64,000 nucleotides of DNA, taken from positions 124,001 through 188,000 of the forward strand of contig NZ_SRSF01000004.1 of the NCBI RefSeq assembly GCF_004803465.1. The letters run 5' to 3'. This DNA comes from Neolewinella litorea (GTDB lineage: Bacteria > Bacteroidota > Bacteroidia > Chitinophagales > Saprospiraceae). Both the position numbers and the translations under genes were made by a program. The notes under the pieces were generated by a model. That model had not been told where the DNA came from and searched no databases. It was given only the letters and a program-made list of their open reading frames with translations. Positions 44,613 to 64,000 of the stretch are shown here, in pieces. Within the stretch, counting starts at the first letter, position 1. Each line of letters opens with the position of its first letter.

Positions 44613-45098
44613 AGCTAGGTTAAGGTGGCTCCTGGATTGGAACGGCCCAGTGTCGGGCTTGTTCCGTGAGGGCTGCTGACCGGACCCTCTCAGGTCCCCC
44701 TTGCGTCGGGCACGCTGCGAGGTCCTGGCGTTTGCTACATGGCACAGCACGTCGCAGTGTTCACGTACCCTGCAACATCGGGCCTGGAGGCCCTCAACCC
44801 GTGAGCAGCAGCAGCGGGATGAGCGACTCCAGGCGAGATTCAGCAAACTAGGGTAATTCAGCCGATCGGGCTGGAAAGCCCTCAACCCGCTTACCCCACG
44901 GGCTGAGCGACTCCAGGCGCGATTCAACAAGCTAAGGTGATTCAGCCGATCGGGCTGGAAAGCCCTCAACCCGCTTATCCCACGGGCGGAGCGACTCCAG
45001 GCGCGATACGCGGAAAAGTCCGGGTTAATATCATTCCAACGATCAGCACGTCGCAGTGTCCACGGCCCCTGCAACATCGGACCTGGAGGCCCCTCACC

Positions 45099-45312
45099 GG
45101 CCCGGCCCTGAAAGGGACGATATCCGACTAGCGAAGTCAATTCCGAGGGAACCGAGGAATGGGCTTCGCGGTCATATCGATCCCATCGGGCCTGGAGCCC
45201 ACTACGGCCCGGCCCTGAAAGGGACGGTATCCGACTAGCGGAGTCAATTCCGAGGGAACCGAGGAATGGGCTTCGCGGACATATCGATTCCATCGGGCCT
45301 GGAGGCCCCCAA
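45099..45312 (+). repeat. Unit A copies 1 and 2 (tandem, 107 bp each)
   Basis: Copy 1 is 45099-45205 and copy 2 is 45206-45312. Each has CCCTGAAAGGG, then a long imperfect hairpin (in copy 1 GCGAAG at 45131 pairs with CTTCGC ending 45169, inner ATTCC with GGAAT), then module H. Copy 2 has GCGGAG, keeping pairing through a G-T. Confidence 0.9.
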
Positions 45313-45445
45313 CCCGTAGGGAGCAGCAGCGGGTTGAGCGACTCCAGGCGCGATACGCGGAACAGTCCGGGTTGGTATCATTTCTACAATCAGCACGTTG
45401 CAGTGTCCACAGCCCCTGCAACATCGGACCTGGAGGCCCCCCACC

Positions 45446-45734
45446 GGCCCGGCCCTGAAAGGGACGGTATCCGACTAGCGAAGTCAATTCCGAGGGGAAC
45501 CGAGGAATGGGCTTCGCGAACATATCGATCCCGTCGGGCCTGGAGCCCACTACCGCCCGGCCCTGAAAGGGACGATATCCGACTAGCGGAGTTAATTCCG
45601 AGGGGAACCGCGGAATGGGCTTCGCGATCATATCGATCCCATCGGACCTGGAGGCCCACTACCGCCCGGCCCTGAAAGGGACGGTATCCGACTAGCGGAG
45701 TCAATTCCGAGGGAACCGAGGAATGGGCTTCGCG
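45446..45734 (+). repeat. Unit A copies 3, 4 and 5 (copy 5 truncated)
   Basis: Copies are 45446-45553, 45554-45662 and 45663-45734. Copy 5 stops after the long hairpin, without module H. ATTCC/GGAAT is kept in all copies while loop bases vary. Confidence 0.88.
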
Positions 45735-54981: not shown

Positions 54982-56157
54982 ATGCGCGCCAATTTCCTGA
55001 AACACCTTGCCCAGACCAGTCCGGCCCCCATGGCCCTGGAAATCGCGGGTGGGGAGGGGGTCTACCTCATTGACACCGCCGGCAAACGCTACCTCGACCT
55101 CATCGCCGGCATCGGGGTGAGTGCCCTGGGCCACAACCACCCCGCCGTGGTGCAGGCGGTACAGCGGCAGGCGGCCACCTATATGCATACGCTGGTGTAC
55201 GGGGAGTTTGTCCTGAGTCCCCAGGTCGAACTCGCCACCTTGCTCTGCGCCCAGCTGCCGCCGGAGCTCGACAACGTCTACTTCACCAACTCCGGCACCG
55301 AAGCCACCGAGGGGGCCATGAAACTGGCCAAGCGGTACACCGGTCGCGCGGAATTCGTGGCCGCCACCCACGCCTACCACGGCAGCACCCAGGGGGCGGC
55401 GAGCCTGATGTGGCCCAAGGACTTTACCCAGGCCTTCCACCCCCTTCTGCCGGGAATTACCCACCTGGAATTCAATGATGACGCGGGGCTGGACCGCATT
55501 ACGAAGCACACCGCCGCCGTGGTCCTGGAAACGGTGCAGGCAGAGTGGGGGCTGCGCACCCCCCGCCCGGAATGGTTGCAGGCCGTGCGCCGCCGCTGTG
55601 ATGAAACCGGTGCCCTGCTGATCCTCGACGAGATCCAGGCCGGCATGGGCCGTACCGGAACCCTCTTTGCCTTCGAGCAGTACGGCGTGGTGCCCGACAT
55701 TCTCCTGCTGGCCAAGGGATTCGGCGGGGGCATGCCCCTCGGGGCCTTCGTGGCGCGACGGGAGGTGATGCAGGCGCTTACTTCCGACCCCGTCCTGGGG
55801 CACATCACCACTTTCGGCGGCCACCCGGTGAGTTGCGCGGCCGGACTGGCGACCCTGCGCACTTTGGTGGAACAGCCAGAAATCATTGCGGCGGTGAAGG
55901 AAAAGGAAGCCCGGTTTCGGCGCTTGTTGGTGCACCCCCGCATTCGCGAGATTCGTTCGGCCGGTCTATGGATGGCCGTGGAACTGGCCGACTTCGGCGA
56001 GGTTCAGCAGACCATTGCCGGCTGCCTGGAGCGCGGACTCATCACCGACTGGTTCCTCTTCAACGAGCGCAGCCTGCGCATTGCCCCGCCTCTGACCATT
56101 TCCGAGGAAGAGATTGATTGGGCTTGCGGGGTGATTGTTGCGGCGCTTGGGGAATAG
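54982..56157 (+). CDS. Class III PLP aminotransferase
   Basis: 391 aa, fold-type I, acetylornithine/ornithine/4-aminobutyrate aminotransferase group. Cofactor motifs are NSGTEATEGAMKLAKRYTG, the Asp in ILDEIQAGMGRTG and the Schiff-base Lys in LLLAKGFGGGMPLGAF. The substrate cannot be decided; annotated relatives are usually called aspartate aminotransferase family. The start at 54982 follows a promoter box. The frame is open to 54916, but that stretch overlaps the upstream gene. Confidence 0.9.
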   Translation: MRANFLKHLAQTSPAPMALEIAGGEGVYLIDTAGKRYLDLIAGIGVSALGHNHPAVVQAVQRQAATYMHTLVYGEFVLSPQVELATLLCAQLPPELDNVYFTNSGTEATEGAMKLAKRYTGRAEFVAATHAYHGSTQGAASLMWPKDFTQAFHPLLPGITHLEFNDDAGLDRITKHTAAVVLETVQAEWGLRTPRPEWLQAVRRRCDETGALLILDEIQAGMGRTGTLFAFEQYGVVPDILLLAKGFGGGMPLGAFVARREVMQALTSDPVLGHITTFGGHPVSCAAGLATLRTLVEQPEIIAAVKEKEARFRRLLVHPRIREIRSAGLWMAVELADFGEVQQTIAGCLERGLITDWFLFNERSLRIAPPLTISEEEIDWACGVIVAALGE

Positions 56158-56257
56158 GGTGGTTAACATCTTCCATTTACAATGGTACAATTTACCCTTT
56201 GGCTGCCGCTGCTATCTGCTTGCTTCGCTCGTGGGACCATTTACGATTTTCGATTTG

Positions 56258-56325
56258 GCAAAACCCGTTCCCCCGGTTCCCTACGGAATTGACTTTGCTT
56301 GGGGGCGTCCCTTTCAGGGGCGGAG
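56258..56325 (-). repeat. Decayed inverted copy of repeat unit A
   Basis: Reads in reverse as unit A of the 44.7-45.7 kb array: CGTCCCTTTCAGGG, GGAATTGACTTTGCTT and GGTTCCCT are kept with scattered changes. One stem pair changed from G-C to A-T, and another is kept by G-T. The preceding 56161-56257 is an AT-rich stretch with ATTTACAATGG and ATTTACGATTTTCGATTTGG motifs and no gene. Confidence 0.75.
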
Positions 56326-56409
56326 GGAGGTGGTTTGGTTTTTTGTTTGGCGGCGGAGCGCTGGTGCCGTTTGCAATCTTAAAGCCGGGTAGCTGGGTAT
56401 CGCTTTATG

Positions 56410-56417
56410 TACCTTTG
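56410..56417 (+). promoter_or_regulatory. -7 box of holA
   Basis: TACCTTTG, 26 nt before the ATG at 56444. Confidence 0.55.
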
Positions 56418-56443
56418 TGTTTTTCCAATCGATTCCCCATTTC

Positions 56444-57484
56444 ATGGACTTTTCCGCACTGCTGAAGGCGATCAAGGGTAAGGATTTTAAACCGATCTAT
56501 CTTCTACACGGGGAGGAGCCCTACTTCATCGATCAGCTCGAGGAAGCCATTGAGCAGCACGCGTTGCAGGAGCACGAGCGGGCCTTCAATCAGACGATCC
56601 TTTACGGAAAGGATACCGATCACCTGCAGGTGGTCGATGCGGCCCGTCGCTTCCCGATGATGGCCGAGCGGCAGTTGATCCTGCTGCGGGAAGCCCAGGA
56701 CATGCGCGACATCAAGGAACTGGCGCGCTACGCTGAGCATCCGGCACCGACCACCGTGCTGGTCATCAGTCACAAGCACAAAAAGCTGAACGGCAACCTG
56801 GCGGTAACGAAGCACATCAAGAAGAACGGGGTGGTCTTCGAGTCAAAGGGGCTGTACGACAACAAGGTGCCGGCCTGGATCTCGGGCTACCTCCGCGAAC
56901 GCAAGTACAAGATCGAGCCAGAGGCGAGCAACCTGCTGGCGGAGTTTCTCGGCACGAGTCTGGGCAAGATCACGAACGAACTGGACAAACTCCTGCTCAA
57001 TCTGCCCAAGGGCACCGAAGTGACCACCCAGATCGTAGAGGACCAGGTAGGCGTAAGTAAGGACTACAACGTCTTCGAGCTCCAGCGGGCCATAGGTCAC
57101 CACGATCAAATGAAAGCCGCGCGTATCCTGCAATACTTCCGCGGCAACCCCAAGGCCGCCCCACTGCCCATGGTCACCGGTAGCCTGTACAACTACTTCA
57201 GCAAGGTCTTTCTGCTCAAGGAACTGCAACGCAAACGTGAGAGCCGGCAGGAGATCATGAAGGCCCTCGGCTTACGCTTCGACTTCTTTCTGGCGGACTA
57301 CGAGCGCACGGCCCGAAACTTCAGTCTGCACGACCTGTACGCAGTCTTCGCCCTGCTGCGCGAATACGACCTCAAAAGCAAAGGGGTAGGCAGTAACCTG
57401 GCAGGCAAGGGGGAGAGTGAGTTGCTGAAGGAGATGGTTTGGAAAATGATGAATGTTAGTCTCTTAGGTGGTTTAGTCCGTTAG
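56444..57484 (+). CDS. holA: DNA polymerase III delta subunit
   Basis: Opens the sliding clamp in the clamp-loader complex. 346 aa with the divergent AAA+ N-terminal domain (IYLLHGEEPYFIDQLEEAIE, YGKDTDHLQVVDAARRFPM), the middle domain (LLAEFLGTSLGKITNELDKL) and C-terminal collar helices (SELLKEMVWKM). The start at 56444 (MDFSALLKAIKG) fits the family. The last ten or so residues (NVSLLGGLVR) are encoded by sequence related to the 16-bp repeats that follow, and the stop codon lies in the first unit. Confidence 0.9.
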   Translation: MDFSALLKAIKGKDFKPIYLLHGEEPYFIDQLEEAIEQHALQEHERAFNQTILYGKDTDHLQVVDAARRFPMMAERQLILLREAQDMRDIKELARYAEHPAPTTVLVISHKHKKLNGNLAVTKHIKKNGVVFESKGLYDNKVPAWISGYLRERKYKIEPEASNLLAEFLGTSLGKITNELDKLLLNLPKGTEVTTQIVEDQVGVSKDYNVFELQRAIGHHDQMKAARILQYFRGNPKAAPLPMVTGSLYNYFSKVFLLKELQRKRESRQEIMKALGLRFDFFLADYERTARNFSLHDLYAVFALLREYDLKSKGVGSNLAGKGESELLKEMVWKMMNVSLLGGLVR

Positions 57485-57565
57485 TTCTTTAGGCCATTAG
57501 TTCTTTAGGTGGGTAGTTCTTTAGGCCATTAGTTCTTTTGGCGGTGAGGCTGATAGTTCTTTAGG
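57481..57565. repeat. Left array of 16-bp repeats
   Basis: Four tandem units starting at 57481, 57497, 57513 and 57529 with consensus TTAGTTCTTTAGGCCA, then a fifth partial unit at 57553 after an 8-bp break. A degenerate unit (57456) lies inside the 3' end of holA. The remainder of the gap to 57615 shows nothing further. Confidence 0.92.
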
Positions 57566-57614
57566 ATATCTGATCATTCTGGGAAGGGCCTCCTTAATGA
57601 ATTGAATAATTGCG

Positions 57615-57998
57615 ATGATCAACATTCTGCTTTGGATGGGGATACATGTTTTTGTTCCGGCAGGGGGAGTACTGGCGTATTTGATCATGTTGAAGAGGAT
57701 GAAAAAGGAGCATACTTCTTGTCCTCCTGTCCGTTCTCTGCTCCTGGTTTTTGCGAGCTACGGAGGTGTGCTTCTGGTTCTGCTGACGGCGTTATTCTGG
57801 AAGTGGTCGGCCCTGGCATCATTCGGGGCTGCTTACCTCGTGCTTGGTGCTCCACTCATAATGGGGGCCGTGGCCTACATGCAATTTCCCACTCGTGTAT
57901 TATCAAAATATCATAGCCTGGTTTACCGATTGGCGCTGATCTATGCGATTGCTATTCCCGTTGTCGTGCTCGCACTGCGGGCATTTAACTTGTGGTGA
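57615..57998 (+). CDS. Hypothetical four-helix membrane protein in the cassette
   Basis: 127 aa with four hydrophobic helices (about residues 3-25, 42-62, 66-90 and 103-124). No family recognised. Base composition is visibly less GC-rich than the neighbouring genes, which suggests acquisition. Located between the two inverted 16-bp arrays. Confidence 0.65.
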   Translation: MINILLWMGIHVFVPAGGVLAYLIMLKRMKKEHTSCPPVRSLLLVFASYGGVLLVLLTALFWKWSALASFGAAYLVLGAPLIMGAVAYMQFPTRVLSKYHSLVYRLALIYAIAIPVVVLALRAFNLW

Positions 57999-58237
57999 AG
58001 GTCCTTAGTGCGGTGGCTTTCCTTTGGAGGATGGTGCGCCTCCTTTACTTAGTGCAAGTCGCAGATCAGGGCATTACCTTCCTCCACTTCCGTAATGAAT
58101 AGCTGAGGAAAACCCAGCTATACGAGATAGGTTGAACAACTCGCCGAACCGTATATAGCCGTATATATTCGATTATATTCGTTTAAGTATCGATTATAAG
58201 GGAGACTGGACCAGACCTTTAGGGAAAGTCTTCTACT

Positions 58238-58618
58238 ATGGCATTTTCCCGTTTCAAGGAATGGGCCGCATACCGCAAGGCCCGGTCGCTATCCACATCC
58301 ATCCTGCATCACTCGGCAGCCTTTCCTAGAGAGGAGCGATACAGCCTCACCGATCAAATCAGGCGGAGCAGTCGATCGGTTTGTGCCAACCTGGGTGAGG
58401 CCTATGCGAAGCGCTGCTACCCCAAACACTTCCATGCCAAGCTCACCGATTCTGCCGGGGAAAACTTTGAGACGCAGGTGTGGCTCGACTTTGCCCTTGA
58501 CTGTGGCTACATCAACCAGGCTACTCACCAGCGTTTAACCGCAGACGCGGAAGAAGTCGGAAAACTATTGTCCTTCATGCAACGCAACCCCGAAAAATTC
58601 CTTCCCGGGAAATCCTAA
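58238..58618 (+). CDS. Four-helix-bundle protein (23S rRNA intervening-sequence/bAvd family)
   Basis: 126 aa with family motifs FKEWAAYRKARSLSTSI, FPREERYSLTDQIRRSSRSV, NLGEAYAKR and the C-terminal GKLLSFMQRN. These proteins form pentameric barrels that bind nucleic acid. One relative (Avd) assists diversity-generating retroelements, but no reverse transcriptase is present here. The 240 bp upstream include a run of GTATATA-type AT repeats (58148-58200). The right 16-bp array begins two bases after its stop. Confidence 0.88.
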   Translation: MAFSRFKEWAAYRKARSLSTSILHHSAAFPREERYSLTDQIRRSSRSVCANLGEAYAKRCYPKHFHAKLTDSAGENFETQVWLDFALDCGYINQATHQRLTADAEEVGKLLSFMQRNPEKFLPGKS

Positions 58619-58620
58619 CA

Positions 58621-58684
58621 GCCTAAAGAACCAATAGCCTAAAGCCCTACCCGCCTAAAGAACTAACTGCCTACAGAACTACTC
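58621..58684. repeat. Right array of 16-bp repeats, inverted relative to the left one
   Basis: Four units at 58621, 58637, 58653 and 58669 with consensus GCCTAAAGAACTAACT, the reverse complement of the left-array unit. The array ends one base before the cvpA stop codon. Confidence 0.92.
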
Positions 58685-58685
58685 T

Positions 58686-59261
58686 TCACTCCTCCAGATC
58701 AAAAATGCTGTCGCTCTCACGTTTATCCACCCCGTCGCGCAACCGGTCCATGGCGTCCACGGCTTGTTCGTAGAAATCGTAGAAAATCGGGAAGATGGCC
58801 TTCGCGTTTTCGATGACCAGGTCCGGGAGTTGGGCCAGCACGGGGTAGGTGATACTGTCGGCCCGTACCTCGTCGCTGATGATGTGGCTGCGGTCGCCGA
58901 AATAGACCAAACCGGAAAAAATGAACGTAAAAAACAGTCCGGAAAGCACGCCGCCCAGGATCTGGTTGATAAAGTTGATGTTAACGGATTCCAGTACACC
59001 GGTCAGTCCACGCGCCAGGATTCGGAACAGCACCAGCGTCAGGAAAAACAGCAACACCACCCCCAGAATGAACGCCCCCGCGCTCGTCACCGCCGGGAAA
59101 GCATCGAAGATCATCTCCGCCGCAATGGGACCGAACTTCATCGCCGCCAGTACGCCAAAGATGTAACTCACCAGGCTAAGCACCGTGGAAATGATCCCGC
59201 GGCTGTATCCTACCCAGAAGCCGTAAGCCAGAAATATGAGGCAGACGATGTCGATGACCAT
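58686..59261 (-). CDS. CvpA-family membrane protein
   Basis: 191 aa with four membrane helices (about residues 3-20, 27-50, 62-85 and 100-122) and the CvpA pattern GFWVGYSRGIISTVLSLVSY ... GGVLSGLFFTFIFSGLVYFG. E. coli CvpA is needed for colicin V export and envelope integrity. The stop codon abuts the right 16-bp array. Confidence 0.88.
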   Translation of the reverse strand: MVIDIVCLIFLAYGFWVGYSRGIISTVLSLVSYIFGVLAAMKFGPIAAEMIFDAFPAVTSAGAFILGVVLLFFLTLVLFRILARGLTGVLESVNINFINQILGGVLSGLFFTFIFSGLVYFGDRSHIISDEVRADSITYPVLAQLPDLVIENAKAIFPIFYDFYEQAVDAMDRLRDGVDKRESDSIFDLEE

Positions 59262-59265
59262 TTTG

Positions 59266-59273
59266 TAAAGATA
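59266..59273 (-). promoter_or_regulatory. -7-like box of cvpA, leaderless spacing
   Basis: TATCTTTA on the minus strand (final G replaced by A) is followed by CAAA and the ATG at 59261. Confidence 0.5.
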
Positions 59274-59769
59274 AGGGGGATTGGGTTGCTGCGTTGGTGA
59301 GGTGTTGGGTTTGCCGTCTGGCTTTCGTCCCTCGCTTTGCCCGGGCGGGTGTCATCTCGTTGTGGAGTTTTTGAGTTGTTGGGTGTGAAGTCTGGCATTC
59401 GTCCCTCGCTCTTCTCGGAGGCTACAGCGCCTGGTTCGCCTCTGCACCTCGCCCTACCGGTATGAGTGCGGGACCGCGTTATCCGGGGGTAACTGACGTG
59501 TAGACTCGATAAGAGTAAGCGATCATTCCATGAGCATTCCACAGGCCACTCAGTATCCCGCTAAGCGTGGAGTGAAAGTGATCTGTTATCCCCAGGTTCC
59601 CGGCTATGATGGTCATTTGTGGTAGCTGCCCAAATAGGAATTACGGGCTTTAACCGCTGCGTCCGGAGGTGACAAGCCGCACTCCCCGAGCGAAGCGCCA
59701 GGGCAAACGCAGCGCCAACTCAAAAAACCAGCAACCTACCAACCCAAAGACCCACCACCACAATCCTTC
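59274..59769. other. Long intergenic stretch with duplicated motif and CA-rich tracts
   Basis: No gene is supported between cvpA and the serA-like gene. A 21-bp motif is repeated at 59316-59336 and 59390-59410 with one difference. CA-rich tracts precede both promoter boxes. A related string around CCAGACGGCAAACCCAA also occurs at 40547-40565, so part of this stretch is probably dispersed intergenic repeat. Confidence 0.6.
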
Positions 59770-59777
59770 TATCTTTG
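59770..59777 (+). promoter_or_regulatory. -7 box of the serA-like gene
   Basis: TATCTTTG, 17 nt before the ATG at 59795. Confidence 0.6.
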
Positions 59778-59794
59778 CGCAAAATTTCTGCACT

Positions 59795-60739
59795 ATGATT
59801 CGCATCTTAGCAAACGACGGCATCGCCGACAACGGCAAGCAACTCCTGGAAGAAGCCGGCTTCTCGGTGGATACGACCAAGATCCCCCAAGACGAACTCA
59901 TGACCCGCCTCAACGATTACGACGCCATCATCGTGCGCAGCGCCACCGAGGTACGCAAGGAGCTTATCGACGCCACCCCCAACCTGAAGGCCATCCTCCG
60001 CGGCGGCGTGGGTATCGACAACATCGACCACGAATACGCCGAAAGCAAGGGCATCCCCACCTACAATACCCCCGCCGCCTCCAGCCAGGCCGTGGCCGAA
60101 CTCGTATTCGCCCACTTCTTTGCCCTCAGCCGCTTCCTGCACCGCTCGAACCGCGAACTGACCCGGCCCGACGGTAACTTCAACAAGCTCAAAAAAGCCT
60201 ATTCCGAAGGTCAGCAACTGCGTGGCCGTACCCTCGTGGTGGTCGGATTCGGACGCATCGGCATCGCCATCGGGCGTATCGCCCTCGGACTCGGCATGAA
60301 AGTGGTGCCGGTCGACCCCTACAAGGAAAAGGAAACCGTCAAACTTGATTTCGCCGACGGACGGAGCATCGACTTCAATTTCGACATGGTATCCCTCGAC
60401 GAAGCCATCAGCCAGGCCGACTACATCACCATCAACGTACCCGGCGGCGACCTTATGGGTGCCGAAGAGATCGCCCGCATGAAGGACGGCGTCATCATCG
60501 CCAACACCAGCCGGGGCGGCGTCATCAACGAAGACGCCCTGCTCGAAGCCCTCAACAGCGGCAAGGTAGCCGGAGCCGCCCTCGACGTGTTCGTCGACGA
60601 GCCCAATCCCCGCCGCGACCTCCTGGAGCACCCCCGCGTAAGTGTTACTCCCCACATTGGCGCCGCTACCGCAGAGGCGCAGGACAACATCGGCGTTGAG
60701 CTCTTCGAAAAGATCCGAGACCATTTTGGTAAGCAGTAG
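59795..60739 (+). CDS. serA: D-3-phosphoglycerate dehydrogenase-like D-2-hydroxyacid dehydrogenase
   Basis: 314 aa. NAD-binding motif GFGRIGIAIGRIALGLGMKV and catalytic residues in RSATEVRKELID, MKDGVIIANTSRGGVINEDA and the His in TPHIGAAT. There is no C-terminal ACT regulatory domain, so allosteric serine inhibition of the E. coli kind is not expected. Likely catalyses the first step of serine synthesis, but other D-2-hydroxyacid dehydrogenases look alike. The start at 59795 (MIRILANDGI) fits the family. Confidence 0.85.
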   Translation: MIRILANDGIADNGKQLLEEAGFSVDTTKIPQDELMTRLNDYDAIIVRSATEVRKELIDATPNLKAILRGGVGIDNIDHEYAESKGIPTYNTPAASSQAVAELVFAHFFALSRFLHRSNRELTRPDGNFNKLKKAYSEGQQLRGRTLVVVGFGRIGIAIGRIALGLGMKVVPVDPYKEKETVKLDFADGRSIDFNFDMVSLDEAISQADYITINVPGGDLMGAEEIARMKDGVIIANTSRGGVINEDALLEALNSGKVAGAALDVFVDEPNPRRDLLEHPRVSVTPHIGAATAEAQDNIGVELFEKIRDHFGKQ

Positions 60740-61202
60740 GAGCACCGCTACGGCAGTATTCGAACTCGCCTGGTGGGCCTTCGCCCTGGTGCTGGCCGGA
60801 CTGGTCGTGCTGCCGATCTCCAGCACGCTGCCTAACTACCCCTTCTACGTCCCGAATTTCATCTACGTGGTGGTGGCCATCACCCTCACGCGCTACCTCT
60901 TTCTGCTTCACGTGAGTTGGTTGCGCGACCGGCTGATCATTCAGGCCGCGGTGGCGATGCTACTGATCCCCCTCATCTTCTATATGGTGCAAGCCTTCAA
61001 CAGCTTCATCATTTACTTCGATGAGCAGGGACCGGACGTGCTGCTGGGCGGACTCGAGCAGGAGGTGGCCAATACCATAGACAGCTACATCCACGCTGAA
61101 TTCCGCTTTTTCGGGGTGTGGGCGATCGTCGCGGCGGCGGTCACTCCCTTTCGGCTGATTTACAATGCCTGGGTACGCTACCGGGCCGGCGTGCGGCGGT
61201 AA
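60726..61202 (+). CDS. Hypothetical membrane protein downstream of serA
   Basis: 158 aa from a TTG at 60726 that overlaps the serA 3' end by 14 bp; the start is uncertain. Four hydrophobic helices (about residues 16-36, 45-62, 72-92 and 125-145). No family recognised. Tight overlap suggests co-expression with serA. Confidence 0.65.
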   Translation: MVSSRSTATAVFELAWWAFALVLAGLVVLPISSTLPNYPFYVPNFIYVVVAITLTRYLFLLHVSWLRDRLIIQAAVAMLLIPLIFYMVQAFNSFIIYFDEQGPDVLLGGLEQEVANTIDSYIHAEFRFFGVWAIVAAAVTPFRLIYNAWVRYRAGVRR

Positions 61203-61335
61203 AGGGTGTGTTAATTAGGCAGTTAGGCGGACATGTGCCCCCGGTGATTTACGATTTGTTCCGGCAATGGGTTGTTTCGATCACTTTTCCTTGTAGCTTG
61301 ATCGGGTTACCGCATTTTTTCAGCGAATATTCGCC

Positions 61336-61821
61336 ATGACGCCACTCGAACTGGTCTACGACAAGATCCTCCCGCTCCCCGAGCTCAGTCGCCGCCGCTG
61401 CGGTTGGCGCTGTTACAGTCACCGGACCGTATTCACCAACGGCGTCTTCGACCTGGTCCACCCCGGGCACCTGACCTACCTGGCGCAGGCGGCCGGACTC
61501 GGACGGCGCCTCATCGTGGGCGTGAACAGCGACGAAAGCGTGCGCCGGCTGAAGGGCGATTCCCGCCCCGTCATGCCCCTGGAAGCGCGTATGCAACTGC
61601 TGGCCAGTCTGGCCTTCGTCGACGGTGTGATTTCCTTCGACGAGGATACTCCCCTGGAACTGATCAAGGCCCTGCGGCCCGACGTGCTCGTGAAGGGCGG
61701 CGACTACACCGAGGCGACAATGGTGGGTGCCCCCGAGGTTCGCAGTTGGGGTGGCAAAGTAGAAGTCCTGCCCTTCGTCGCCGGGCACTCCACCACCGCG
61801 CTGCTGGAAAGCATCCGTTAG
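61336..61821 (+). CDS. rfaE2: Heptose-1-phosphate adenylyltransferase (RfaE2/HldE C-domain type)
   Basis: 161 aa, nucleotidyltransferase fold with FTNGVFDLVHPGHLTYL (HxGH motif) and VGVNSDESVRRLKG. It transfers AMP to D-glycero-beta-D-manno-heptose 1-phosphate for lipopolysaccharide core sugar synthesis. The kinase half found fused in E. coli HldE is absent. Related cytidylyl/adenylyl-transferases are alternatives. Confidence 0.88.
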   Translation: MTPLELVYDKILPLPELSRRRCGWRCYSHRTVFTNGVFDLVHPGHLTYLAQAAGLGRRLIVGVNSDESVRRLKGDSRPVMPLEARMQLLASLAFVDGVISFDEDTPLELIKALRPDVLVKGGDYTEATMVGAPEVRSWGGKVEVLPFVAGHSTTALLESIR

Positions 61822-61866
61822 GGTACCTTGCACCTGCGCTCTGGCGCAAAGGAAAACCAACGCGAC

Positions 61867-62661
61867 ATGACCACCATCAAGGAAGTCACCGACTACCTGG
61901 AACGGATCGCCCCCGGGCACCTGCAGGAGAGCTACGACAATGCCGGACTGATCGTGGGAGACCCCGCTACCGAGGTGACCGGTGTGCTTACGAGCCTGGA
62001 CTGTACCGAAGAAATCATCGAGGAGGCGGCGGCGCGCGGGTGCAATGTCGTGGTGGCCCATCACCCCATCGTGTTCCGCGGACTGAAGCGCCTCAACGGG
62101 GCCAACTACGTGGAACGGACGGTCATCCAGGCCATCCGCCGCGGCATCGCGATCTACGCCATCCACACCAACCTGGACAACGTGCGCTTCCGTGGCGTCA
62201 ATGAGCGTATCGCGCAGCGGCTCGGACTGCAAAGGCTCCGGCTTCTGCGGGCCAAGGACGAAACCGGGGAGGTGGGCTCCGGCATGGTGGGCGAACTGCC
62301 CCAGCCCCTGTCCGAGGGCGACTTCCTGGCGTTACTTCACGAGCGGATGCACGCCACGGTCGTGCGCCACACGCCCCTGACCGGTAAAGAGGTCCGTACC
62401 GTAGCCGTAGCGGGCGGGGCGGGGGGCTTCCTGCTGGCCGATGCGAAGGCGGCGGGTGCCCAGGCCTTCGTGACGGCCGACTACAAGTATCACGAGTTCT
62501 TTGACGCTGAGGGGGATATCGTCATATGCGACATCGGGCACTACGAAAGCGAACAGTTTACAACTCAATTACTTGCGGAGTTGTTAACTAAAGAATTTAC
62601 TACCTTTGCGGTCCTTTCCACGGAGCGGAACACCAATCCGGTGCGCTATTACGTAGGGTAA
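61867..62661 (+). CDS. Nif3-like dinuclear metal-centre protein (YbgI family)
   Basis: 264 aa. Metal-ligand motifs NVVVAHHPIVFRGLK, AIHTNLDNV and DIGHYESEQF are present. It has the short form without the roughly 100-residue insert found in many Bacteroidota Nif3 proteins. Biochemical role unsettled; some relatives have GTP cyclohydrolase IB activity. The next gene's promoter box lies inside its 3' end. Confidence 0.9.
   Translation: MTTIKEVTDYLERIAPGHLQESYDNAGLIVGDPATEVTGVLTSLDCTEEIIEEAAARGCNVVVAHHPIVFRGLKRLNGANYVERTVIQAIRRGIAIYAIHTNLDNVRFRGVNERIAQRLGLQRLRLLRAKDETGEVGSGMVGELPQPLSEGDFLALLHERMHATVVRHTPLTGKEVRTVAVAGGAGGFLLADAKAAGAQAFVTADYKYHEFFDAEGDIVICDIGHYESEQFTTQLLAELLTKEFTTFAVLSTERNTNPVRYYVG
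62601..62608 (+). promoter_or_regulatory. -7 box of the zinc-ribbon gene, inside the nif3-like gene
   Basis: TACCTTTG with TTG 17 bp upstream (62581). It gives a leader of about 80 nt before the ATG at 62694. Confidence 0.5.
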
Positions 62662-62693
62662 GGTACCCTCTAACATCTTTAAAGCTACACTGC

Positions 62694-63458
62694 ATGGCTG
62701 CTGCTGCCCCCACCGAACTGACGGTCGAAGAAAAAATGCGCGAACTGTATCGCCTGCAACTCATTGACTCCCAGATCGACGAGATCGAGATCCTCAAAGG
62801 AGAACTCCCCATGGAGGTGAGCGACCTGGAAGACGAGATCGCCGGACTGGAGACGCGCATCAGCCGTACCGAAGGTATCGTTGACGAGCTCCGCACCGAG
62901 ATCAGCCGCCACGAGGCGAACATGAACGAGTCGGACATGCTCATCACCCGCTACGAGGAGCAGATGAACAACGTCAAGAACAACCGCGAGTACGAGGCCC
63001 TGATGAAGGAGACCGAAATGCAGCGGCTCGAGATCCAGCTCAGCCAGAAGAAAGCCAAGACCGCCAGCGAAGACCTGGAAGGTCGCGTAGCTACCCTGGA
63101 TGCCACCAAGGAACGGCGCGACGCCAAGCTCAAACTGCTCGAAGTGAAGCAGGAAGAGCTGAAGAGCATCATCGCCAAGACCGAAAAGGAAGAGAAGAAA
63201 CTGCGCCGCCTCTCCGACAAGCAGCGCAAGCTCATCGAAGACCGCCTGCTGCGTGCCTACGACAAGACCCGTGCCAACTTCCGCAACGGACTGGCCGTAG
63301 TGACCGTGGAGCGCAACGCCTGCGGCGGATGCTTCAACGCCATCCCGCCCCAGCAGCAACTCGAGATCAGCCAGCGCAAACGCCTTATGGCCTGCGAACA
63401 CTGCAGCCGCGTACTGGTCGACGGCAACATCCTTGAAGAAGAAGCTGTGGAATCTTAG
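62694..63458 (+). CDS. Coiled-coil zinc-ribbon protein (COG1579 type)
   Basis: 254 aa. A long antiparallel coiled coil (about residues 10-190) with the motif NNREYEALMKETE, then a C4 zinc ribbon (ACGGCFNAIPPQ ... MACEHCSRVLV). Such proteins are thought to bind nucleic acid; the chlamydial relative CT398 interacts with sigma-54 and secretion components. It follows the Nif3-like gene, an order common in Bacteroidota. Confidence 0.88.
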   Translation: MAAAAPTELTVEEKMRELYRLQLIDSQIDEIEILKGELPMEVSDLEDEIAGLETRISRTEGIVDELRTEISRHEANMNESDMLITRYEEQMNNVKNNREYEALMKETEMQRLEIQLSQKKAKTASEDLEGRVATLDATKERRDAKLKLLEVKQEELKSIIAKTEKEEKKLRRLSDKQRKLIEDRLLRAYDKTRANFRNGLAVVTVERNACGGCFNAIPPQQQLEISQRKRLMACEHCSRVLVDGNILEEEAVES

Positions 63459-63491
63459 TAGTACCGCCACGGAATAGCACGGAAGTGCGAT

Positions 63492-63533
63492 AGGGATCAC
63501 CCGGTTTGCTTGGCAGGCCGGGTGATCCCTTTT
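63492..63533 (+). terminator. Terminator of the zinc-ribbon gene
   Basis: A 13-bp perfect stem (AGGGATCACCCGG and complement) with a 13-nt loop, followed by a TTTT tract. Confidence 0.88.
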
Positions 63534-63955
63534 GGGATGAACGGTTCCGGTCACTGCAGCACATAGGCAAGCCGTTTGCCCACCTCTTCCGCGCCCCGGA
63601 CCTACTGCCCGTACTGTTCTTTGGTGAGGCAACCCTGGGCCAGGGCAAAGAATAGTCGTGATAAAGGGCACGACAGCGACACAATATTCACTGATCCTGC
63701 AGCCGTGTGAGTGGCTAATGGTTCCAACACGCGGCTACCCTCCCTGGCTGAAGCACCGCAAACCCGGCAGCTAGCTCTTTTTTGTGAAATCGACGGTGTA
63801 ACCCCAACGGTACTGGGTGGGAAACGGTACCACGGTGGAACCAGATTGCCGTACTATTGTCCCGTTCAACTATTGCACTACCTTATTGAAGCACTGACCT
63901 ACTATTGTACTGAGATACTGCCAAACTACCGTTCTACAGTACTGCCGTACTAACC
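63534..63955. other. Intergenic stretch without a supported gene
   Basis: The first 130 bp can be read as a short open stretch in one frame but lack a start. From about 63840 the sequence is AT-richer, with recurring CTACTATTG/ACTGCC words. No RNA gene, palindrome or insertion sequence was recognised. Confidence 0.5.
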
Positions 63956-63963
63956 TACCTTTA
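63956..63963 (+). promoter_or_regulatory. -7-like box of the last gene, leaderless spacing
   Basis: TACCTTTA (final G replaced by A) is followed by CCAC and the ATG at 63968, the same four-base gap as elsewhere in the window. Confidence 0.5.
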
Positions 63964-63967
63964 CCAC

Positions 63968-64000
63968 ATGTCCTCCAGAATCCTGATCATCGGTGCCGGC
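63968..64000 (+). CDS. Start of an NAD(P)-binding protein, cut by the window edge
   Basis: Only eleven codons are visible (MSSRILIIGAG). They form a hydrophobic first strand leading into a GxG nucleotide-binding turn, as in saccharopine dehydrogenase-like proteins. Identity cannot be settled from this fragment. Confidence 0.6.
   Translation, partial: MSSRILIIGAG

Follow-up and report, generated by a model that had tools for sequence, protein, structure and literature searches.

The heptamer arrays of cyanobacteria are known as short tandemly repeated repetitive (STRR) sequences. Arrays of 7-bp units have been described separately in Xanthomonas (GGGAATC), in Nostoc (GGGGA(C/T)T) and Calothrix among the cyanobacteria (PMC4692102), and in Beggiatoaceae (TAACTGA; PMC4679880), with no settled function given in the portions of these papers available to us. 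The available text of PMC4692102 gives 70 and 75 cases of convergent inverted pairs of the Xanthomonas unit near stop codons, and the same gene context in two species for 83% of the arrays. In the intervening sequences (IVSs) of the 23S rRNA of Coxiella and others, an open reading frame (ORF) of the S23 family occupies the loop of a stem made by terminal inverted repeats (PMC4990558, in the part available). S23/IVP structures have been solved since 2006 (2gsc), still without an assigned function. A third system is that of the tyrosine transposases associated with repetitive extragenic palindromes (REPs), the RAYTs: the driver gene is flanked by a repeat, there are many dispersed gene-less inverted hairpin pairs (REPINs), distinct families occur within one genome, and repeat type is tied to driver type (PMC3116915, in the passages accessible). 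The window analysed here, a stretch of 64,000 nucleotides from Neolewinella litorea (contig NZ_SRSF01000004.1, positions 124,001 to 188,000), holds an S23 gene between two mirror-image arrays of a short unit, located between the genes holA and cvpA. It was compared with other loci (denoted by L-numbers) in the genome of the window (G000), in a congener (G006) and beyond. The association of S23 genes with inverted arrays is secure, and the best reading that we weighed, with a probability of about 0.5, is that S23 genes outside rRNA drive a family of array-hairpin elements, as a driver-satellite system working like RAYT-REPIN.

Inverted arrays around S23 genes

The element is a unit of ~1.2 kb between the convergent genes holA (DNA polymerase III delta; 56417-57484, forward strand) and cvpA (58686-59261, reverse strand), and it consists of a left array, a 127-aa ORF, the S23 gene (58238-58618, forward strand, 126 aa), which is the proposed driver, and a right array. 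The 5' array (57472-57565, forward strand) is built of TAG-N5 octamers, TAGTTCTT and TAGGCCAT, and presents the G/T-rich strand, while the 3' array (58615-58682, reverse strand) carries the reverse complement of this unit (CCTAAAGAACTAA). Mirrored arrays around a four-helix-bundle gene had been proposed in an earlier sequence-only reading of the window and are confirmed at these positions. The 16-bp repeat of that reading is present as well, but as a dimer of the 8-bp unit, in which TAGTTCTT alternates with TAGGCCAT and similar octamers; the equal copy number that it gave for the two sides is a rough match only, as the left array has five TAGTTCTT copies, the fifth after a gap. Both arrays were also said to touch the stop codons of the neighbouring genes, which holds for holA, whose frame ends on a TAG of the array (57482), but not for cvpA, the stop of which (58686-58688) lies 3 nt past the right array. 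The lower GC content noted for the inner DNA was borne out (0.502 versus 0.60 for the window, with 1 of 126 same-size windows as low). Allowing two mismatches or fewer, CCTAAAGAACTAA is matched 8 times in the 64 kb of the window, each time in one of the two arrays, versus 0.58 expected, and this number was reached in 0 of 100 shuffles of the window, so that chance is excluded for these arrays.

The inverted arms (57482-57549 and 58614-58681) extend over 68 nt with 84% complementarity and, once a short artificial loop connects them, form an almost unbroken stem (-83 kcal/mol). Such a stem would also suit an explanation at the RNA level, in which the arrays make the transcript form a long stem that RNase III cleaves, freeing the S23 message and sparing the operon, and the arrays in the DNA are a by-product. 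The rRNA IVSs, with S23 in the loop of an RNase III-cut stem (PMC4990558, in the part available), are a precedent for it, and S23 insertions do occur within the usually operonic pairs leuC-leuD, where both congeners have one and the genes were named by reading, and cas6-cas4. Yet the Rfam search of positions 56000-64000 gave no match, the gene-less copies described below are more numerous than the S23 copies, and an RNase III stem has no need of a tandem periodicity of 7-9 bp; we hold this explanation to be improbable.

For the comparison between loci, a flank score was defined as the best local match between the left flank and the reverse complement of the right flank, and scores of at least 30 were counted as positive. 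G000 contains five PF05635 matches, four of which exceed the Pfam cut-off and the fifth of which reaches 31 versus 33.8 bits. All five genes lie inside inverted arrays by this measure, each with a unit of its own (8-bp TAGTTCTT; 7-bp GATTCTC, GAAGTAC and CAAATTG types; 8-bp GGGTCAAT), and the other four proteins are only 22-34% identical to that of the window. Where the same 16-bp arrays had been suggested as a feature to look for at other four-helix-bundle genes, inverted arrays were thus found at all five in G000, but their units differ. Within the host's family, scores of at least 30 were obtained for 21 of the 30 best-scoring S23 loci and for 11 of 20 other, unselected ones, versus 8 of 266 neighbouring ORFs. 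The named GTDB loci gave 48 of 78, versus 3 of 596 control positions in the same loci (38 versus 0 at a score of at least 35), and the plasmid loci, 13 cyanobacterial and one from Azospirillum, gave 11 of 14 versus 0 of 140 controls; the family and named GTDB sets overlap in at least two loci (L016 = L257, L022 = L216). The positive GTDB loci span Bacteroidota, Planctomycetota, Poribacteria, Desulfobacterota and a Thiodictyon, and include an alphaproteobacterial and an Ignavibacteriae metagenome-assembled genome (MAG), although contigs of MAGs may be mis-binned. The unit with repeat-array termini and a four-helix-bundle gene, first proposed for the window alone, therefore recurs at every S23 gene of its genome and in several phyla.

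Short tandem arrays are common, at 165 per Mb in the analysed stretches of G000, and low-complexity intergenic DNA could in principle pair by chance, so that the whole pattern would be an artefact of composition or search. When left and right flanks of different loci were paired (408 pairs, from the loci of G000 and the best-scoring family loci), the median score was 21 versus 39 for the true pairs, with the 95th percentile at 26 and the 99th at 38.6, and two conserved control genes, with approximate gene bounds, reached 30 in no case (LeuD 0/26, CvpA 0/30). Composition and chance pairing were rejected on these cross-pair and control-family tests together with the same-locus and neighbouring-ORF ones; with reversed-pattern controls at 0 and a fixed polarity of the arrays, an artefact is very hard to credit.

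Two observations concern S23 genes on cyanobacterial plasmids. In a Pseudanabaena plasmid (L059), the cas6 and cas4 genes of a type I-D locus have an S23 array element between them. IVP genes occur in cas loci according to the accessible part of PMC3936711, and the plasmid case suggests that they can be array-element insertions there and not CRISPR components. In five others (L048, L049, L050, L052 and L055), an annotated tyrosine-type recombinase/integrase gene directly follows S23.

Polarity, period and covariation with the protein

The arrays follow simple rules. Among 96 scored arms, G exceeds C at the 5' side of the gene in 89, equals it in 4 and falls below it in 3, and the best period of the 75 clearly periodic arms is 7 in 48, 8 in 23 and 9 in 4. 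Across 56 loci, unit similarity tracks the identity of the S23 protein (Mantel r 0.254, equalled in 0 of 2000 permutations): shared 5-mers of the units stand at 0.22 for S23 pairs with 60-80% identity and at 0.06-0.07 for those with 40-60%. Related hosts add to this covariation, and some pairs come from distant hosts, such as Adhaeribacter (L259) and Aequorivita (L261), whose S23 proteins are 62% identical. The suggestion that the protein could act on the repeats gains from this covariation, and from the change of unit between congeners given below, a supported link between protein and repeat, while the action itself would be a further step.

The order of unit variants in the two arms was considered as a proof of fold-back copying and set aside. 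For 42 of 45 loci, the in-register identity of mirrored variants is higher than the mean of the shuffles (p<=0.05 in 21), but the register was picked by best alignment and the test is for this reason not relied on.

Gene-less copies and change of unit between congeners

The unit of the window is dispersed in its genome, where one intact S23 gene bears it. The 12-mer TAGTTCTTTAGG has 37 occurrences at 14 places in G000 (reversed control, 1); one place is the window element, none of the 13 others coincides with an S23 gene, and some of them are compact inverted hairpins. The congener, which carries four S23 matches (two of them read, and one 55% identical to the protein of the window), has 77 matches of its own unit pattern and about 30 gene-less places. 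The two units almost exclude each other between the congeners: the TAGTTCTT pattern occurs 34 times in G000 versus 4 in G006 and the TAGTACGG pattern 0 versus 77 times, with reversed controls at 0 for both. Arrays occurring without such genes had been named beforehand as a point against the idea of an S23 cassette; these were found, yet the gene-less arrays bear the unit of the resident S23, and those of G006 adjoin gene 3' ends. At one place in G000 (L010/L178, contig C34:297100-297520), downstream of a Der-like GTPase gene (named by reading), a higher-order tandem repeat of ~104 bp has one or two TAGTTCTTTAGG units in each copy, and at one in G006 (L297, C5:297000-297340) array units are spaced by repeated CGCTCGCTGTGCTCGCTGG blocks in a composite repeat.

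Both arms follow the same order at 19 of 28 gene-less sites in G006 and the reverse order at none; one site is mixed, and at 8 all exact units fall on a single strand. At 27 of the 28, the outermost exact units have a gene 3' end no more than 24 nt away on at least one side, and 14 sites are convergent, as judged from mechanical ORF calls; three G006 hairpins fold strongly (z -6.5 to -7.0). Position and folding are also what would be seen if the hairpins were made by the host, as terminator-like or mRNA-end structures born by slippage and homogenised by ordinary gene conversion, inside which S23 and PDDEXK_3 genes happen to persist best. The Xanthomonas heptamer arrays, near or overlapping stop codons and conserved in gene context as noted above (PMC4692102, in the part available), fit this explanation too, as do the arrays around ordinary genes, those in an S23-negative genome and the PF13366 family with the same flanks (all below). 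Passive landing in host hairpins, however, does not predict that five S23 genes of one genome lie in five different units, that unit similarity follows protein similarity across genera, or that the unit changed at lasting sites while the array of a dead driver kept the old one, and we consider a host origin unlikely, if a serious contender.

The change at lasting sites was seen when ~1.28 Mb of G000, taken in stretches that include the window, was matched to 31 site rows of G006. Fifteen array sites of G006 are syntenic on both sides in these stretches; 10 have an array in both species, as judged by eye (the G000 copy is degraded at L303 and at the site of the decayed S23), and the other 5 lack one in G000, through either a gain or a loss. 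Two of the shared sites are biased, namely that of the window itself and L140, whose G000 stretch was chosen for its array; once both are set aside, 8 of 13 remain. For three clean sites, scores of 47-81 show that left and right arms match in each species, and arms from different species do not (14-26), so that the hairpin has persisted there while both of its arms were replaced. Two sites allow no such judgement because the G000 hairpin is degraded (L303) or split (L298). At the latter (G000 C12 ~530850-531750) the gene-less hairpin is interrupted by an insertion of ~0.9 kb, which is bounded by GAGCGTGTCTAAAA terminal inverted repeats.

A second S23 gene of the window bears on this change. 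It is decayed, with in-frame stops (63509-63824, reverse strand), and was recognised by tblastn (E 1e-6 and 2e-6, with a 600-bp piece) and by synteny with an intact S23 site of G006; its local score of 73 exceeds those of all 300 control pieces, the highest of which is 46. An array remnant of the TAGTACGG type of G006 lies beside it (63849-63985, reverse strand; tandem repeats finder row at 63925-63952), scoring 50 to (CCGTACTA)n versus 11 to (AAGAACTA)n, and gene and G006-type remnants together span 63457-63985. Six other G000 arrays were tested, and five match the unit type of the live S23, L310 being the exception. In G006 the arrangement is the opposite one, with the intact S23 ~4 kb from cvpA and a gene-less hairpin only at the holA-cvpA site. 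The simplest reading is that the unit of the population follows the live driver.

The S23 protein and other features of the window

The S23 protein of the window matches PF05635 with 95.6 bits (cut-off 33.8), in agreement with the identity first given for the four-helix-bundle gene, and TIGR02436 with 89.9 bits (cut-off 24). Its AF2 model is a confident four-helix bundle (pLDDT 93.9), and the closest solved folds in Foldseek are XCC0516 (2gsc; E 1.8e-5, TMq 0.80) and BT_0352 (2rld), entries of five chains each. E33, Q40, S47, N51, E54 and E78 are invariant across 33 sequences, and a related motif was noted earlier in PMC3936711, in the part available to us. Pfam and NCBIfam scans of the protein found no nuclease domain. 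S23 genes are present in 54 of 61 genomes sampled within the host's family.

The kinship to Avd, the helper of diversity-generating retroelements (DGRs), is distant: Avd (4dwl) has a similar fold (Foldseek TM 0.74, E 0.039), but the protein stays below the Avd-specific cut-offs (25.6 bits versus 80, and 26 versus 40 for bAvd). The genes between the arrays and the two that adjoin them include no reverse transcriptase; the search covered these genes, and neither template and variable repeats nor the rest of the genome. A DGR was rejected on the cut-offs and on the lack of an adjoining reverse transcriptase.

The small membrane-like ORF of 127 aa (57615-57998, forward strand), whose membrane nature was judged by eye, is, besides S23, the one ORF between the arrays that was examined, and it has no Pfam or NCBIfam match. 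It is present as first described, but its membership in the unit is unsupported: a homologue exists in 2 of 120 family genomes, the genome of the window being one, and the tandem repeat finder gave no array at the other copy. The ORF was therefore rejected as cargo, and we treat it as a rare passenger outside the core element. PADLOC gave no match, and a defence system was likewise rejected. An ordinary insertion sequence (IS) or miniature inverted-repeat transposable element (MITE) was also set aside as unlikely, on the lack of a transposase between the arrays, the variable arrays at the termini and the lack of a legible target duplication. Elsewhere in the window, tandem repeats of 84-108 bp of the GCCCTGAAAGGGACG ... 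GAAGTCAATTCCG type lie at 44815-45734, and a related stretch occurs upstream of holA (56260-56345).

A proposed driver-satellite model and the evidence against it

In the reading of S23 genes as drivers, a typical driver would be enclosed by a mirrored pair of arrays built from its own 7-9 bp unit, the G-rich strand being at the 5' side of the gene, and the gene-less arrays and compact hairpins at gene 3' ends would be its satellites, as REPINs are to RAYTs. The S23 protein, which may be a pentamer in solution, would recognise its cognate unit in an extruded or single-stranded hairpin, or in hairpin RNA, and would bring hairpins together, and replication or repair enzymes of the host would then use one hairpin as a template to overwrite another or to fill a new site at a gene 3' end. 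Once a new driver with a different unit takes over, the population would gradually be rewritten to that unit.

Several results weigh against this model. S23 genes without a clear inverted array, which the sequence-only reading had named as counter-evidence, do exist in part: scores are below 30 at 9 of the 20 unselected and 9 of the 30 best-scoring family loci, and at 30 of the 78 GTDB loci, though many of the last keep arms of period 7 or 8. Flanks match in direct orientation with at least 30 at 12 of the 78 GTDB loci, and the upper quartile of direct-orientation scores is 38.5 in the set of own and best-scoring family loci; since these matches are also high, not every array is simply mirrored. 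Ordinary genes may have such flanks as well. Of the eight positive neighbouring ORFs, the six that were checked encode an ABC transporter ATPase, three FG-GAP proteins, a HAD hydrolase and a protein with a weak PEGA match. The loci of the nuclease-like PF13366 family (PDDEXK_3 / GxxExxY; L401-L430) score at least 30 in 16 of 30 cases, versus 33 of 870 cross-pair controls, and their arrays have 8-10 bp units of CGCAGATTT, CGCAAAGG and GGATTT types, more degenerate than those of S23. Because PF13366 genes have like flanks, S23 may not be the sole or the relevant factor.

Array density does not help the model either. Inverted arrays number 2 in 80 kb of one S23-negative genome (G046) and 0 in 160 kb each of two others (G043 and G021); in other S23-positive genomes, away from S23, there are 4 in 279 kb and 0 in 100 kb, and in G000 12 in 1282 kb of a non-random sample. 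A clear dependence of density on S23 is not supported by these few genomes, a comparison that is underpowered. At the shared sites, the arms of three of the six judgeable ones (L299, L307 and L310) pair across species too, with scores of 26-50, and at the five sites empty in G000 no target-site duplication was legible by eye, the divergence between the congeners making it illegible. The switch of driver is a single case, the reading of S23 genes in G006 having covered two of its four, and the search between the arrays of the window turned up neither a nuclease nor a transposase.

A wider proposal can also be made, which we advance tentatively and expect to fail somewhat more readily than to hold: the hairpins at gene 3' ends in several phyla would form populations with a 7-9 bp "address" that is set by the resident S23 and rewritten at fixed sites after a change of driver, this transposase-free system would also explain the heptamer arrays of Xanthomonas, Nostoc and related cases, and PDDEXK_3 would be a second, independent class of driver.

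Comparison with known systems

The data tie together two separate puzzles, the S23 proteins and the short arrays. Among the matches listed in a search of the open-access literature, no paper links S23 genes with short-unit arrays, subscription papers being outside its scope, and in the two heptamer-array papers (PMC4692102 and PMC4679880) the terms "four helix" and "intervening" have 0 occurrences, and no S23-like gene partner is named in the available text. If S23 indeed reads or copies its own unit, this would be a new, transposase-free route for the spread and homogenisation of repeats, and even with S23 genes as mere passengers the link with arrays makes both puzzles directly testable. Taken together, the results suggest an overlooked kind of self-spreading DNA element.

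The heptamer arrays resemble those described here in their tandem units of 7 bp (here also 8 bp) and their mostly intergenic position at gene ends, and X. campestris itself encodes an S23 protein, XCC0516 (the 2gsc structure). The PDDEXK_3 / GxxExxY loci likewise have a small gene between inverted arrays, with units of 8-10 bp, but that gene belongs to a separate Pfam family, PD-(D/E)XK by name. Fixed terminal inverted repeats are characteristic of ISs and MITEs; the termini here are variable arrays. With the rRNA IVSs the window element shares terminal inverted repeats that enclose an S23 ORF, in the form of the 68-nt arms; it lies, however, outside rRNA, and the S23 elements here adjoin the 3' ends of protein-coding genes or lie within operonic gene pairs, with tandem-array arms, gene-less copies and species-specific units. 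The likeness to RAYT-REPIN lies in organisation: dispersed inverted hairpin doublets with the flanking repeat of the proposed driver were found here as well, and several unit types, each with its own S23 gene, coexist in one genome. The differences lie in the proposed driver, which is a four-helix-bundle protein (PF05635) and not a tyrosine transposase, in the termini, which are tandem arrays of 7-9 bp units and not a single REP, and in the shared sites, which have been rewritten to another unit.

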